A stretch of DNA of 64,000 bases, taken from Gammaproteobacteria bacterium (GTDB taxonomy: Bacteria > Pseudomonadota > Gammaproteobacteria > GRL18). Both the position numbers and the translations under genes were made by a program. Location of the stretch: positions 1-64,000 of the forward strand of contig WFNB01000032.1 of NCBI GenBank assembly GCA_015488755.1, written 5' to 3'. Positions 8,588-15,889 of the stretch are shown here, in pieces (position 1 is the first letter of the stretch; every line of letters begins with the position of its first letter). The notes beneath the pieces were generated by a model, which saw only the letters and a list, made by a program, of their open reading frames with translations, did no database searches and had not been told where the DNA came from.

Positions 8588-9679
8588 TTAATCTGGTAAT
8601 GCTGGGCCTTCTTCACCCCAGCACAAAGTGGCACCACACCCGGGTGTTTCAAAGAGGTCTATACGATCCAATTGAGGTAATTTATCGGCCATTTTATCTT
8701 TAATCCAGATTAAGACACTGCCAACATCAGTATCACCAAGGCCATCAAGCAAATCTAAACGAGCATGATCCAATTGTTGATAAACCGGTTTAAACAGGCG
8801 TTTCACATCACCATAATCAACCGTCCAGCCCATAACCTTATCTAAGGTTGCCGTTAGGTGAAGGCGTATAAGATAACTATGACCATGCAATTGTCGACGC
8901 TTGTTATTGGCATTAACCGATTTTAAACGTAAGGCACTTTCAAAGCGTTGTTCTTTCCATATCCGATAATGACTGCCGTTATAGTGACAACCAGAGGTAT
9001 GGGTTTCATAAACAGTCACCCATGAAAGTTGCACAAAATCTGCCTTGAGCTGTTGCCAAATCCAGTGCGCCAACACTTCTGATGTGGGGTTTTCCAGCCC
9101 CTTGATATCATTTAAACAATGGTAATCTAATTGCTCATGTAAGGCTTGCCAATGATTATCAATGGCATCAAAATCAATGCCCATATCACTGATATTATCT
9201 TGATCAGCATGTAAAATCACTTCAAAACCATGACCATGCATATTGCCACAAGGATGCCCCTTTGGAACATGGGGTAATTGGTGAGCTGCTTCAAAACGAT
9301 AACGGCGCCAGATATGTGCATGACCTTTTTTATCCAGATCGACACCACTATCATGAGTACTTTGAATAGCCACCCGATCAATGGCTGCTAGATTAATTTT
9401 ATGATGGAGCCAACGAGCCAGATTTTCATCGGTGGGAACATCAATGTGTTTATTGAGTAAACTATAATTTAACGGTTCAAGGCTTGTTGCTAATTGTTGT
9501 TTTAAGAAACTCACTTGCTCAGGTGAATTATTGCGATCATTAACGGGTATGGGAACACGTATGGAGGCACTATAACTATGGCCATGCAAATGAGCAGCAG
9601 GATGATTTTTATCTAAAATATCAATCTGGCAGGCCGCTTCAAACGGCATGGTTGCCAAGTACAAAAGAGTGTCTCTCAT
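8588..9679 (-). CDS. queD: 6-carboxytetrahydropterin synthase QueD, three PTPS domains in tandem
   Basis: QueD turns 7,8-dihydroneopterin triphosphate into 6-carboxytetrahydropterin. Single-domain QueD is about 120 residues; this protein has 363, with three PTPS-like units near 1-120, 125-235 and 240-355. The middle unit resembles E. coli QueD most (FEAAHQLPHVPKGHPCGNMHGHGF): zinc ligands H133, H148, H150 and catalytic C144 are present, but LDYHCLN has Tyr where E. coli has catalytic His71. Unit 1 (FEAACQI, HLHGHSY) has Cys for the first zinc ligand. Unit 3 (FESALRL, LHGHSY) lacks that ligand and the catalytic Cys but keeps LDH and a late Glu. It sits between queC and queE. Confidence 0.88.
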   Translation of the reverse strand: MRDTLLYLATMPFEAACQIDILDKNHPAAHLHGHSYSASIRVPIPVNDRNNSPEQVSFLKQQLATSLEPLNYSLLNKHIDVPTDENLARWLHHKINLAAIDRVAIQSTHDSGVDLDKKGHAHIWRRYRFEAAHQLPHVPKGHPCGNMHGHGFEVILHADQDNISDMGIDFDAIDNHWQALHEQLDYHCLNDIKGLENPTSEVLAHWIWQQLKADFVQLSWVTVYETHTSGCHYNGSHYRIWKEQRFESALRLKSVNANNKRRQLHGHSYLIRLHLTATLDKVMGWTVDYGDVKRLFKPVYQQLDHARLDLLDGLGDTDVGSVLIWIKDKMADKLPQLDRIDLFETPGCGATLCWGEEGPALPD

Positions 9680-11144: not shown

Positions 11145-12278
11145 CTAATTATCCAAGCGATCAACCTTTACATTTTGAGGATTAACAGGTGGCAGTTTTT
11201 TACCGCCGAATAGGCTTTCAAAGCGCCAACTCATAAAATTAGGACGAGAGAGGTAGTTTTTACTAACAATAAACTCTAAGACACTTTTTAAACGATATAT
11301 GTGTGCCACAGAATCAATACGAATGATCTCATTGCCTCGTTCATCAAAGGCAATAAGTGTTGGTGCATAAAATAAATTAAGCTGATCCGCCCATTGTTTT
11401 GCAGTGATACGTTGGCCATTGGGTGTGATGACTGGGGTGTCTGAATTCATATCTAATTGCACAATGTCAAACTGAGATAATAGTTTTTTAGTCTCTGCAA
11501 ACTCTAATGGTTTAGAGTGTAAGACATCACAGGCATGGCAATTTTGTTGTTCAAAAAAAACCAGTAAAGGATCTTTAGCAGGAAAATGGCTGCGATCTAA
11601 AGCAAAAGGCGGTGACATAAAGAAATCTTCATGGTTCATATCCGTCACTTCAAACTTAGGCGGTGGATTGGCACGTAACATATAATCTCGAAAGGATTCA
11701 TACTTATAATAATCATGGCCAACATATTCTATGGCGGCGCGAAATTTATAGGGAGGGTAAAAGCCACGCAACATGAGTGTCTGCTGAGCTTGAGTATTAT
11801 AAAAGATAAGCGTGGGGGTAAAATTAGCATTTTCACGAAGGGCATACTCACGTTCTGTCATGACTTGACCATCCGGTGTGGTAAGCTCATTACTGCCCCA
11901 AATGTTGATGGGGATGACATCGAAATTTTTTCGTGTATAAGTCTCAATATCTTTTTGGCCAAAATCCTTATCAATTAATGCCTGACAATAGGCACAATGT
12001 TTTTGCCCAAAATAAACAATAATACCTTTTTTCCCTGTATTTTTAGCTTCATTGATATCGTCTGGAAGCTCTAAAAAACTTTTTTTAAACCATTCAGGAT
12101 AAACAATTTCAGGAATAACCGGTTGATCATTAAAACCATTTTCCCAGTCCTCATCCCAATCATCACTTGCTTGCTCGGCAGCAAAACCAGAGAGGCTCAG
12201 TACTGACAAGAGCAGAAAGAAGACTGTCTTATAGCGCTTTTTGTCTACGATATGGTGCATTAGCTGTCGTGTGTTCAT
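11145..12278 (-). CDS. Exported protein with two thioredoxin-like domains
   Basis: A 377-residue exported protein (signal peptide YKTVFFLLLSVLSLSGFAAEQ). Two related thioredoxin-fold units follow: IIVYFGQKHCAYCQALIDKDF with cis-Pro region NFTPTLIFYN, and LLVFFEQQNCHACDVLHSKPLEF with FYAPTLIAFDERG. Both keep CxxC (CAYC, CHAC), and both carry a similar stretch before the cis-Pro (TPDGQVMTEREYA, TPNGQRITAKQWA), so the protein arose by internal duplication. The units resemble SoxW-like periplasmic thioredoxins. Likely a periplasmic disulfide reductase or isomerase; the partner is unknown. A long palindrome lies in the gap upstream of it. Confidence 0.8.
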   Translation of the reverse strand: MNTRQLMHHIVDKKRYKTVFFLLLSVLSLSGFAAEQASDDWDEDWENGFNDQPVIPEIVYPEWFKKSFLELPDDINEAKNTGKKGIIVYFGQKHCAYCQALIDKDFGQKDIETYTRKNFDVIPINIWGSNELTTPDGQVMTEREYALRENANFTPTLIFYNTQAQQTLMLRGFYPPYKFRAAIEYVGHDYYKYESFRDYMLRANPPPKFEVTDMNHEDFFMSPPFALDRSHFPAKDPLLVFFEQQNCHACDVLHSKPLEFAETKKLLSQFDIVQLDMNSDTPVITPNGQRITAKQWADQLNLFYAPTLIAFDERGNEIIRIDSVAHIYRLKSVLEFIVSKNYLSRPNFMSWRFESLFGGKKLPPVNPQNVKVDRLDN

Positions 12279-12530: not shown

Positions 12531-14546
12531 ATGGCTTTAACATCAACATTGCTGGCAAAAAAACAGGCGCATTACCTCTATCAGTCATTAAACCTAACGG
12601 TTGTCAGCCTGTTTCTGGCCGTTTCAATGGTGCTTTATTTATTATGGGATTTACCTAATACTCGAGAAATGGCTCTGTATTGGTATATTGCGAACTTATT
12701 GGTTTTAGCTCTACGTATGTTGATTGGCCGTTTTTATTGGTCTTCCAGCGCTAAAGATAATCCTTATAAATGGATTATCTTGTTTGCTGTTGCTGTGTGT
12801 CTCAATGGTACTATTTTATCTCTGATTATTTTTATTGTGCCAAGTGATCACAGCTTTTATTATACTTATATCTTATTGTTATTAGGCACAATAGCCATTG
12901 CCTCGATTGCCTCATTGGGTATTATTAAGCGGGTATTTTTTACTTACCTTGGTTTTTTGGCCACCCCCTTAATGATATTTTTTATCACCAATAATAATGA
13001 ACTGCATACGTTTCATATATATGGCTACCTTGTTATCTTTCTATTCACCAGTAGCGCCGTAGTACGTATTAATAAAAGCTTAATATCTGCCTTTACCATG
13101 GAGATTGAAAATAAAATCTTAAGAAAAAAACTGACCAAGGAAACCAGTTCACGTTTACATGCAGAGGATGAAATGCGCAATAAAGCACAAGAACTGCAAG
13201 TGCTTAATGAAACCTTAGAAACAAAAGTAAAAGAAAAAACGGTAGAACTTGAGAATCTCGCCTTTTACGATACCTTAACCCAACTACCAAATCGCCATCA
13301 TTTTTATGATTATCTGGAACGGACCTTAAAACGAAATAAACTCAATCAAGATCCCTTTGCCTTATTTTTTATTGATTTAGATGAATTTAAAACTGTTAAT
13401 GACACTTTAGGACATGACTTTGGTGATATTTTATTAACTCAGGTTGCTCAGCGTTTACGTAACATAATGCGTGTGGACGACTTTGTTGCTCGTATCAGTG
13501 GTGATGAGTTTATTATTGTTGTTAAAAAAGTATTGCACCGAAGCAAGTTTATGCAAATTGCTGATAATATTGTTAAAAAAATATCAGAGCCCTATTTGCT
13601 TATTGATACTCAAACCTTTATTAGCTGTAGCTTGGGTATTGTGCTTTATCCTGAAGACGGTGATAACACCAATACCTTAATTAAACATTCTGATTTAGCC
13701 ATGTATTATGCCAAAGAAAATGGTAAAAATTCTTTTTGCTTTTTTAATACTGACCTATATGAGAAAAAAGCCCAGAAATTCATTTTAAAAAATGCCTTAC
13801 AAACCGCCATTCAAAATAATGAATTATCTCTTGTGTATCAACCTAAGGTAAGTTGTGAGGATGCCTCCATATCCAGCATGGAGGTATTGCTTCGCTGGAA
13901 TAGTCCACAATTTGGCTTTGTGCCACCGGATGAGTTTATTGCTCTGGCAGAAGAGTCCAATCAGATTTTAGAACTAGAAGAATTTGTCCTGATAACAGCA
14001 CTCACGCAGGTGAAACAGTGGAATAACAACCTGCATAAAAATCTTTGTGTCGCAGTGAATATCTCCGGCATTCACTTTATGCAAAAAAACTTTGTGCCAC
14101 AAATAGAGGACATTCTTTCTAAACTGGAATTTAATCCTCAAAATTTAGAGTTAGAACTTACCGAATCAGCCTTAATGAGTGATAGTTGGGAAAGCATTGA
14201 AAAACTAGCACGTTTAAAGTCAAAGGGAGTAAAACTCAGTATTGATGATTTTGGTACAGGGTATTCCTCTTTAAGTTATTTGAAACAATTACCCATTGAT
14301 AACCTGAAAATTGATAAAAGCTTTATTGATTGCATTCCAGATGATAAAAATAATACTGCTATTACCAAGGTGATCATTGATCTGGCTCACCAGTTTAATC
14401 TGCAAACCATTGCCGAAGGTGTTGAGCACAAATATCAGTGTGATTTTCTACAAGCAGCAGGTTGTCACTTTATTCAAGGTTATTATTATCATAAGCCCCT
14501 GAGCATTGAAGCATTTGAAAAACTCATAGGAGCCGATCAGCCGTAG
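12531..14546 (+). CDS. Membrane-bound GGDEF-EAL cyclic-di-GMP signalling protein
   Basis: A 671-residue protein with about six transmembrane helices (residues 20-175), a coiled-coil linker (MRNKAQELQVLNETLETKVKEKTVELE), a GGDEF domain and an EAL domain. The GGDEF domain has FIDLDEFKTVNDTLGHDFGD, signature SGDEF instead of GGDEF and an RxxD inhibitory site (RVDD) five residues before it. The EAL domain has the variant MEVLLRW plus NISGIHF, ELTESALM, DDFGTGYSSLSYLKQLP, LKIDKSF and AEGVE, so metal and catalytic residues look intact. It probably degrades c-di-GMP and may also make it. The membrane part is a sensor of unknown input. Confidence 0.9.
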   Translation: MALTSTLLAKKQAHYLYQSLNLTVVSLFLAVSMVLYLLWDLPNTREMALYWYIANLLVLALRMLIGRFYWSSSAKDNPYKWIILFAVAVCLNGTILSLIIFIVPSDHSFYYTYILLLLGTIAIASIASLGIIKRVFFTYLGFLATPLMIFFITNNNELHTFHIYGYLVIFLFTSSAVVRINKSLISAFTMEIENKILRKKLTKETSSRLHAEDEMRNKAQELQVLNETLETKVKEKTVELENLAFYDTLTQLPNRHHFYDYLERTLKRNKLNQDPFALFFIDLDEFKTVNDTLGHDFGDILLTQVAQRLRNIMRVDDFVARISGDEFIIVVKKVLHRSKFMQIADNIVKKISEPYLLIDTQTFISCSLGIVLYPEDGDNTNTLIKHSDLAMYYAKENGKNSFCFFNTDLYEKKAQKFILKNALQTAIQNNELSLVYQPKVSCEDASISSMEVLLRWNSPQFGFVPPDEFIALAEESNQILELEEFVLITALTQVKQWNNNLHKNLCVAVNISGIHFMQKNFVPQIEDILSKLEFNPQNLELELTESALMSDSWESIEKLARLKSKGVKLSIDDFGTGYSSLSYLKQLPIDNLKIDKSFIDCIPDDKNNTAITKVIIDLAHQFNLQTIAEGVEHKYQCDFLQAAGCHFIQGYYYHKPLSIEAFEKLIGADQP

Positions 14547-14608
14547 CAAAATTCTGGCATATAAAATGCTTCTCTTAAAGAATAGAAAATATAAAAAGAG
14601 AGTATTCT

Positions 14609-15889
14609 ATGACACTGCAAATTACTGATAAGGCCATGGTAAACAGCCACAATTCTCATAGTATAAAACCACCCATGCAAAGTGATTTTGCCAAAGACTT
14701 TACTTTTCAGCAGCTCATAAGTCAAAAATCAGACACAATAACGATAACCACAAAAACAATAGCCACCAGCAGACCATCTGATAATTTACTATCACTGGGT
14801 ACTCTCTCAGGAGCAAATAAAAATGTTGCCCAACTATTACTCGCAAACCCTGCGCTTAAGGCAAAAACTTGGTCCATTATCCATAATCCCATTAATCAGA
14901 CTAAGGCTTTTCATAAGATCCCCTCAGGTCAGGAAATTTATTTTAATACGCAGACTCAAGAGATCTCTTGGCCTAAAAATAGGCTTCATTCACCCAAGCA
15001 GCAATATAAACAAGTCTCTAGTCAACAAGACTCTGTTTCTAGAGCAATTGCGACACCAATATCAGCTGCACCACAAAAAAAAGTGCTGGGTCAGCTCACA
15101 TCACATCAGTCAACCGTATTAAGTCTCTTGGCACAGCAAGATGAGTTTCGTTTACAACGTTGGAGCATTATCCATTCAGCTTTAAATAAAAATAAAGCAT
15201 TTACCCAAATACCCAAAGGAGCCACTGTTTTTATTGATACACAAAGCAAAGAAATTTCATGGCAGAGCCCTGATAAACAAATGACACAGCCTATCTCTGA
15301 TAATAATACGTTATTGGCAAGGAAACTCGATGATGCCGTAAAGCCTTTTATGGGCACAGACTACAAAAAAATGGATTGTTATACCTTGGTTGTTAATGGT
15401 TTGGAAAATATGGGGGTTCATTACCGAGGCGAAGGCAGTTTAAGTCGGCAACTACTGCAAATGGCTCAAACAGAAGGAAAAGTGAACAATGCTTATTTTA
15501 CTGGGGAAGGGATTACTCAAGCAATGGGAGAGAAAGTCTATGCTCATTCAATTACTAAGGTACAAAATATCGAACAACAAAGTCAGGCCATTTTTAAAGA
15601 CATGCAGGCCTTGATAAAAGCGGGGGATATTTTATCTTTTTCACTAGAAAGCAAGGGGCATACAGGGATCATTTCTCAAAATCAACAGCAATGGACCTAT
15701 ATTAATTCGGGACGCTTAGATCACTCCATTAATGACAACGCTCCCAAACAAGGTGTTGGCGAGGAAGTCTTAGTAAAAGAAATTACCAATTGGCTTAAAC
15801 GAGCTAAACGATACCATGAGTCATTGCAAATTACCGTGGGGCGATTAGATAGTCAAAAATTCTCCAGACTGGATGTCGTCAGTTTATAA
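14609..15889 (+). CDS. NlpC/P60-like protein with two 60-residue repeats
   Basis: I recognise no exact family for this 426-residue protein. Residues about 62-121 and 159-218 are two copies of one unit: compare TWSIIHNPINQTKAFHKIPSGQEIYFNTQTQEISW with RWSIIHSALNKNKAFTQIPKGATVFIDTQSKEISW. The C-terminal part looks like a papain-like NlpC/P60 fold: MDCYTLVVNGLENMGV supplies a candidate nucleophile C257, KGHTGII a candidate H351, and YINSG a possible third residue. It is probably a peptidoglycan peptidase or amidase with repeat binding domains. No signal peptide is visible, so its location is open. AAGAGAG lies six bases before the ATG. Confidence 0.75.
   Translation: MTLQITDKAMVNSHNSHSIKPPMQSDFAKDFTFQQLISQKSDTITITTKTIATSRPSDNLLSLGTLSGANKNVAQLLLANPALKAKTWSIIHNPINQTKAFHKIPSGQEIYFNTQTQEISWPKNRLHSPKQQYKQVSSQQDSVSRAIATPISAAPQKKVLGQLTSHQSTVLSLLAQQDEFRLQRWSIIHSALNKNKAFTQIPKGATVFIDTQSKEISWQSPDKQMTQPISDNNTLLARKLDDAVKPFMGTDYKKMDCYTLVVNGLENMGVHYRGEGSLSRQLLQMAQTEGKVNNAYFTGEGITQAMGEKVYAHSITKVQNIEQQSQAIFKDMQALIKAGDILSFSLESKGHTGIISQNQQQWTYINSGRLDHSINDNAPKQGVGEEVLVKEITNWLKRAKRYHESLQITVGRLDSQKFSRLDVVSL

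Follow-up and report, generated by a model that had tools for sequence, protein, structure and literature searches.

Early flagellar subunits require two signals for export, a nonpolar signal in their first residues and a gate-recognition motif (PMC8983047). In FlgD, the gate-recognition motif is FLTLL at residues 36-40, and a distance of at least 19 residues from the nonpolar signal is needed (PMC8983047). Passage of the rod through the wall is only partly settled where FlgJ has a single domain, and two separate proteins have been proposed for delta-proteobacteria (PMC8517470). Our search of the open-access literature found no flagellar NlpC-like exported enzyme. FlgJ itself is exported by the flagellar apparatus. 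Here we describe P0001, the product of a gammaproteobacterial gene, and its relatives. We propose, with a probability of about 0.6, that P0001 is a papain-like cysteine hydrolase associated with the flagellum, is exported via the flagellar type III apparatus, and probably opens peptidoglycan.

Results

The window (the whole stretch of 64,000 nucleotides that was analyzed) is part of contig C32 in a genome of 3.5 Mb, which its closest named relatives place in the Gammaproteobacteria. As judged from the open reading frame and from relatives, the P0001 gene occupies 14609-15889 (+), begins with ATG, and encodes a papain-like and repeat-bearing protein of 426 residues, in agreement with the initial annotation. 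That annotation also described the gene as following one for c-di-GMP signaling and its product as having no signal peptide. Both descriptions hold: the upstream neighbor (12531-14546, +) encodes a GGDEF-EAL protein, and neither a hydrophobic signal nor a membrane segment was found in P0001, whose 19-residue Kyte-Doolittle mean reaches a maximum of 0.89 overall and 0.12 within the first 60 residues. A signal peptide was likewise looked for in the relatives and found in none of them. The GGDEF-EAL gene adjoins the family gene in most gammaproteobacterial relatives, and the link to c-di-GMP signaling is mostly local to these loci.

Two other genes of the window are worth recording. The gene at 11145-12278 (-) encodes a protein that looks secreted and has two thioredoxin-like domains (Pfam Thioredoxin_2); this gene is kept upstream of the same neighborhood in the relatives L016 and L019 and lies beside the relative in L012. 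A protein of 363 residues (8588-9679, -) reads as three tandem QueD/6-pyruvoyl-tetrahydropterin-synthase units with repeated HxHGH motifs; it adjoins a queC-like gene, and such a fused triple copy seems unusual.

With P0001 as the query, 10 among 56 other genomes yielded orthologues, every one of these genomes belonging to its own bacterial family, and only one of those orthologues was met again in a sample of 369 genomes of the same class. A search of genome contigs with P0001 alone gave no match, while an alignment of the orthologues did match as the query and brings in Desulfobacterota and Nitrospirota relatives that are 30-40% identical. The protein family spans Gammaproteobacteria, Desulfobacterota, and Nitrospirota, with zero to three repeats per member; among its carriers are Desulfosediminicola flagellatus, Desulfopila aestuarii, Desulfatibacillum alkenivorans, and Desulfospira joergensenii, and D. 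flagellatus and Desulforhopalus sp. IMCC35007 are examples of cultured ones. The family is seldom met, being present in 8 of 297 Desulfobacterota genomes and 1 of 198 Nitrospirota genomes. The catalytic-domain tree unites the gammaproteobacterial rows (98/96) and, separately, the Nitrospirota rows (100/99). The most divergent relatives, the pair L086 (1186-2289) and L088 (1075-2178), have no repeats and carry a different N-terminal region in their place, and they retain the FxxxPhi motif, the sigma-54 site, and the active site discussed below. A mobile or phage origin was dropped because searches of phages, plasmids, and viral contigs for the family returned no match. Molybdopterin-type genes (moeA- or mobA-like by sequence reading) lie near the homologue in four Desulfobacterota loci (L025, 6330-7535; L027, 11112-12512; L035, 9396-10145; L038, 9383-10105), possibly by chance.

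The papain-like catalytic domain (15326-15847, +; residues about 240-413) is delimited by the model and by fold matches. In the AlphaFold2 model, the predicted nucleophile Cys257 (15377-15379, +) begins a helix, the predicted general base His351 of the GHTG motif (15659-15661, +) begins a strand, and the predicted third residue, Asn366 of YINSG (15704-15706, +), lies 15 positions past His351 on the following strand. Modeled alone, the domain has a pLDDT of 92 and a pTM of 0.88. Across 32 aligned sequences, Cys257 is conserved in all 31 that cover it, and His351 and Asn366 are conserved in 32 of 32. The initial annotation had placed Cys257, His351, and GHTGII correctly, and all are kept wherever relatives cover them; homologues without the Cys, which were to count against its claim, did not appear among the 31. 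We regard Cys257-His351-Asn366 as a putative active site of predicted geometry.

The top Foldseek matches of the domain are papain-like cysteine peptidases, among them AvrPphB (1ukf, E 5.7e-5), viral tegument deubiquitinases, Josephin, and SpeB, and the whole of P0001 gives the same picture. These matches have TM-scores of about 0.4 or less, with 13% identity to peptidase C58/deubiquitinase folds, and the fold match therefore says little on substrate. No NlpC/P60 structure is among the best 50 PDB matches. At the sequence level, Pfam NLPC_P60 scores 12.1 bits on P0001 against a cut-off of 23, and the best of 30 members reaches E 0.014; weak hits to NLPC_P60 in 8 and to CHAP in 5 of these 30 are never convincing. 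The Pfam C58 family, looked for among the members at E up to 1, gave no hit, the likeness being structural only. Both the fold and the conserved Cys and His place the family among the papain-like (clan CA) proteins, and the layout of NlpC/P60 enzymes, with the Cys at a helix start and the His and a third polar residue on later strands, is present in sequence and model. The initial assignment as NlpC/P60-like is thus upheld for the papain-like fold and the conserved Cys/His pair but not for the NLPC_P60 score, which falls under the cut-off, nor by the best 50 structures. The most fitting description of the P0001 family is as a separate papain-like family with a distant NlpC/CHAP affinity. The likeliest substrate is probably peptidoglycan, as suggested by the weak NLPC_P60/CHAP similarity and the LysM-like topology of the repeats.

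Two repeat copies precede this domain, at 14789-14980 (+, residues 61-124) and 15080-15271 (+, residues 158-221), as delimited by profile, alignment, and model. They had been noticed from the sequence and read as a possible uncharacterized domain, a reading that the profile and the model now support. The unit is 64 residues long, with 24 of 64 positions identical between the ungapped copies, and is real by a shuffle test (local alignment score of 132, where 2000 shuffles averaged 23.4 with an sd of 4.7 and never exceeded 60). With a profile built from the two, 46 copies were detected across 26 relatives, each of which has one to three. The model gives a beta-alpha-alpha-beta-beta order, mostly at high confidence in each copy and with a pLDDT of about 90 across most of repeat 1. 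The repeats would probably bind the wall. Their order of elements is that of LysM plus one strand, but Pfam LysM was looked for in 30 family members without a hit, and an hhalign comparison with the LysM domains of the same genome is weak (probability 3.8, p 0.011, 20 columns), too weak for a claim of LysM identity. Some copies match Pfam DUF7071 weakly, below or near threshold. A phmmer search against the PDB aligned residues 101-132 with PRP40/FBP11 WW domains (E 0.002), and PF00397 is weak in two members; we dropped a WW domain because this stretch belongs to the end of the 64-residue unit that is kept in 46 copies.

The first 50 residues are modeled as disordered (pLDDT 31-39), and the N-termini of the family are hard to align. 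At the extreme N-terminus, TLQI (residues 2-5; 14612-14623, +) may serve as the nonpolar signal, a role suggested by PMC8983047. An I, V, or L at residue 3 or 4 is present in 25 of 27 members versus 56 of 180 controls (31%). The gate-recognition motif is reportedly of the form FxxxPhi, according to the same early-subunit export work, and the family counts point to FAKDFTFQQLI (residues 27-37; 14687-14719, +) as a candidate for it in P0001. Of the 27 members, 26 have F-x-x-x-[ILVMF] within residues 20-50, usually at 26-30, as opposed to 56 of 180 controls (31%); shuffled N-termini contain it in a mean of 4.5 of 27 and never reached 26 in 1000 trials. The family therefore has what is expected of early flagellar type III substrates, a nonpolar start and an FxxxPhi at least 19 residues on. 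The spacing, about 22-25, lies close to the smallest useful one in PMC8983047, and FxxxPhi is a low-information motif.

A sigma-54 (-24/-12) promoter, TGGCATATAAAATGCT, is found at 14555-14570 (+), 54 nt before the P0001 start codon. It stands directly behind the GGDEF-EAL stop, and the P0001 gene is therefore probably its own transcription unit. Where GG and GC are required in place with at most two mismatches to TGGCAC-N5-TTGCW, such an element lies upstream in 28 of 30 family loci, in most of them at a distance of 54 to 130 nt from the start, versus 4 of 222 other genes of the same loci (Fisher p about 1e-30; kinship makes the counts non-independent, yet the loci come from three phyla). Within the P0001 genome, flhA is preceded by TGGCACATAACCTGCT, 76 nt upstream, and flgF by the weaker TGGCTTAAATAATGCA at a similar distance. 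Exact sites elsewhere in this genome precede sulfur, porin, and other non-flagellar genes, so the promoter alone is no proof of a flagellar role. A separate observation concerns the 16-base site TGGCATATAGATTGCT, which is identical in L093 (G000:C5:10988) and L102 (G000:C68:83011), 62 nt ahead of two unrelated genes, one for a secreted-looking protein and one soxY-like. A sigma-28 promoter was sought upstream of the family genes as well; no site was consistent among the loci, and sigma-28 control was dropped.

FlhA is encoded in 29 of the 33 carrier genomes and the FlgJ rod-binding domain in three of the other four, which makes 32 of 33 flagellar; the only carrier with neither is G403. The base rate of FlhA is about 62% (188 of 297 Desulfobacterota genomes and 123 of 198 Nitrospirota genomes), and all eight carriers of the Desulfobacterota sample have it (p 0.024). 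Within the bacterial family of P0001, 11 of 11 carriers are flagellated versus 9 of 13 non-carriers (p 0.07), indicating that the carriers are a subset of the flagellated genomes. The gene is missing from 9 of the 20 flagellated genomes there, and the P0001 family is therefore not a core flagellar part. P0001 lies outside any flagellar cluster in its own genome. Elsewhere, the family gene is convergent with fliW-csrA-flgL-flgK-flgN-flgM-flgJ-flgI-flgH-flgA-flgG in a Desulfobacula (L033), adjoins fliW-csrA in a member of the Desulfohalobiaceae (L040), and is one gene away from fliK in a member of the Nitrospirota (L044); fliW, csrA, flagellin-type FlgL, FlgK, FlgJ, and FliK were named by Pfam and the rest by sequence reading.

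The FlgJ of the P0001 genome has a glucosaminidase domain; in Desulfobacterota, FlgJ is single-domain and without a wall-cutting part, with a length of 108 residues in D. flagellatus. The Rod-binding domain (PF10135) was looked for in the family members and found in none, and their genomes encode FlgJ by a gene of its own. For the P0001 genome, the idea that the protein stands in for an absent FlgJ wall domain was dropped on account of the glucosaminidase domain of its FlgJ. From these domain contents, the role of the family may be one of replacement in Desulfobacterota and of addition in the genome of P0001.

Discussion

Three lines of evidence link the P0001 family to flagella, namely, the promoter, the N-terminus, and the co-occurrence and adjacency in genomes; each is strong as a correlation drawn from sequence. 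The family is best read as a putative rod/hook-type flagellar export substrate, and export through the growing flagellum would explain why P0001 has no ordinary secretion signal. In the mechanism that we envisage, the conserved sigma-54 site, which is of the same promoter class as that of flhA in this genome, would drive expression together with the flagellar programme. The FxxxPhi motif would then dock at FlhB and the N-terminal nonpolar residue would open the gate, such that the flagellar apparatus, and not Sec or Tat, would deliver the enzyme to the periplasm while the rod grows. There, the beta-alpha-alpha-beta-beta repeats may keep the enzyme on the wall, where the conserved Cys257-His351-Asn366 would cleave peptidoglycan stem peptides or cross-links, either letting the rod through or remodeling the surrounding wall. 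The full proposal, that this is an unnamed family of cysteine wall peptidases in three phyla, sent through the cell's own flagellar channel, equipped with repeats that bind the wall, and controlled by a sigma-54 promoter of its own, we hold more tentatively, at somewhat short of an even chance.

The evidence for export would be identical if the cargo were a cysteine protease that cuts a protein (of the rod, hook, or cap, or an extracellular one) and not peptidoglycan. The nearest folds do cut proteins (1ukf at E 5.7e-5, the tegument and Josephin deubiquitinases), and the spacing after the His is AvrPphB-like; we nonetheless consider a protein substrate unlikely, because best TM-scores of only about 0.4 say little on this point and because the sequence similarity, although weak, is to the wall-cutting NLPC_P60 (8 of 30) and CHAP (5 of 30) and is accompanied by a LysM-like order of elements in the repeats. 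Less probable again is an enzyme that never leaves the cytoplasm and serves the flagellar or c-di-GMP programme, perhaps in the processing or recycling of a muropeptide or flagellar protein, with FlhB, a chaperone, or the like as the cytoplasmic partner of its N-terminal motif. Against it stand both export signals, found in the N-terminus at the expected spacing, whereas the lack of a signal peptide in every relative, the GGDEF-EAL gene of most gammaproteobacterial loci, and the PilZ-like and GGDEF neighbors of some other members would suit it. Binding-type repeats in varying number typify wall and surface enzymes that are exported, and the variable repeats of this family argue for export also.

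Type VI effectors include papain-like wall amidases that lack a signal peptide, which invites comparison with an ordinary NlpC/P60 wall peptidase or an interbacterial toxin released by type VI secretion, phage lysis, or non-classical export. The Tae enzymes are listed in PMC10318531. Such an origin is highly improbable for P0001: no conserved immunity-like partner gene sits beside the family genes, phages, plasmids, and viral contigs are without a match, and the carriers are almost all flagellated and share one conserved promoter class. We give next to no credence to the idea that control by sigma-54 belongs to a surface programme, of exopolysaccharide or PEP-CTERM, and not to flagella. Although a PEP-CTERM-like gene lies near the L025 relative and 18 of 33 carriers have an exosortase, 15 of 33 lack one, while flagella are absent from a single carrier, and the adjacent genes are flagellar; the exosortase/PEP-CTERM link was dropped on the basis of the 18 of 33.

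If the reading of P0001 as an exported flagellar wall hydrolase is correct, there would be a second, peptide-cutting route to open the wall for the flagellum beside the glycan-cutting FlgJ and SltF. A conserved cysteine hydrolase with early-flagellar signals would be a candidate for letting the rod through the wall where FlgJ has a single domain, and a new kind of cargo for the export gate. It also suggests a rule by which further cargo may be found, which combines the lack of a signal peptide, a sigma-54 promoter, an M-x-[ILV] start, and an FxxxPhi near residue 27.

Comparison with Known Systems

The catalytic domain shares with NlpC/P60 (peptidase C40, PF00877) and CHAP (PF05257) enzymes a papain-like fold, a D/N-C at the helix start, and a GH at the strand start, and differs from them in the long helical stretch from Cys to His and in having Asn as the third residue. 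Its nearest solved folds are those of peptidase C58 (YopT/AvrPphB) and the tegument and Josephin deubiquitinases. The AvrPphB pair is H212-D227 (PMC11475232), and the spacing of 15 from the His to the third residue is the same in P0001. Unlike C58, however, the P0001 family comes from free-living sulfate reducers and from MAGs of environmental origin, with no sign that it is a host-directed effector. The repeat resembles LysM in its predicted beta-alpha-alpha-beta order and in an I-x-x-G-x-x-I end but has an additional C-terminal strand.

With the early flagellar export substrates FlgD, FlgE, FlgG, and FliK, the family has in common a nonpolar start and an FxxxPhi in a disordered N-terminus; in contrast to these, it has an enzyme domain, and its genes are mostly outside flagellar clusters. 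FlgJ (a rod cap with a glucosaminidase), SltF, and LTase-Bb provide the precedent for the flagellum-linked wall opening that we propose for the P0001 family. P0001 has neither the Rod-binding nor the Glucosaminidase domain of these systems, and it would bring to the same task a cysteine peptidase fold in place of a glycan-cutting enzyme.
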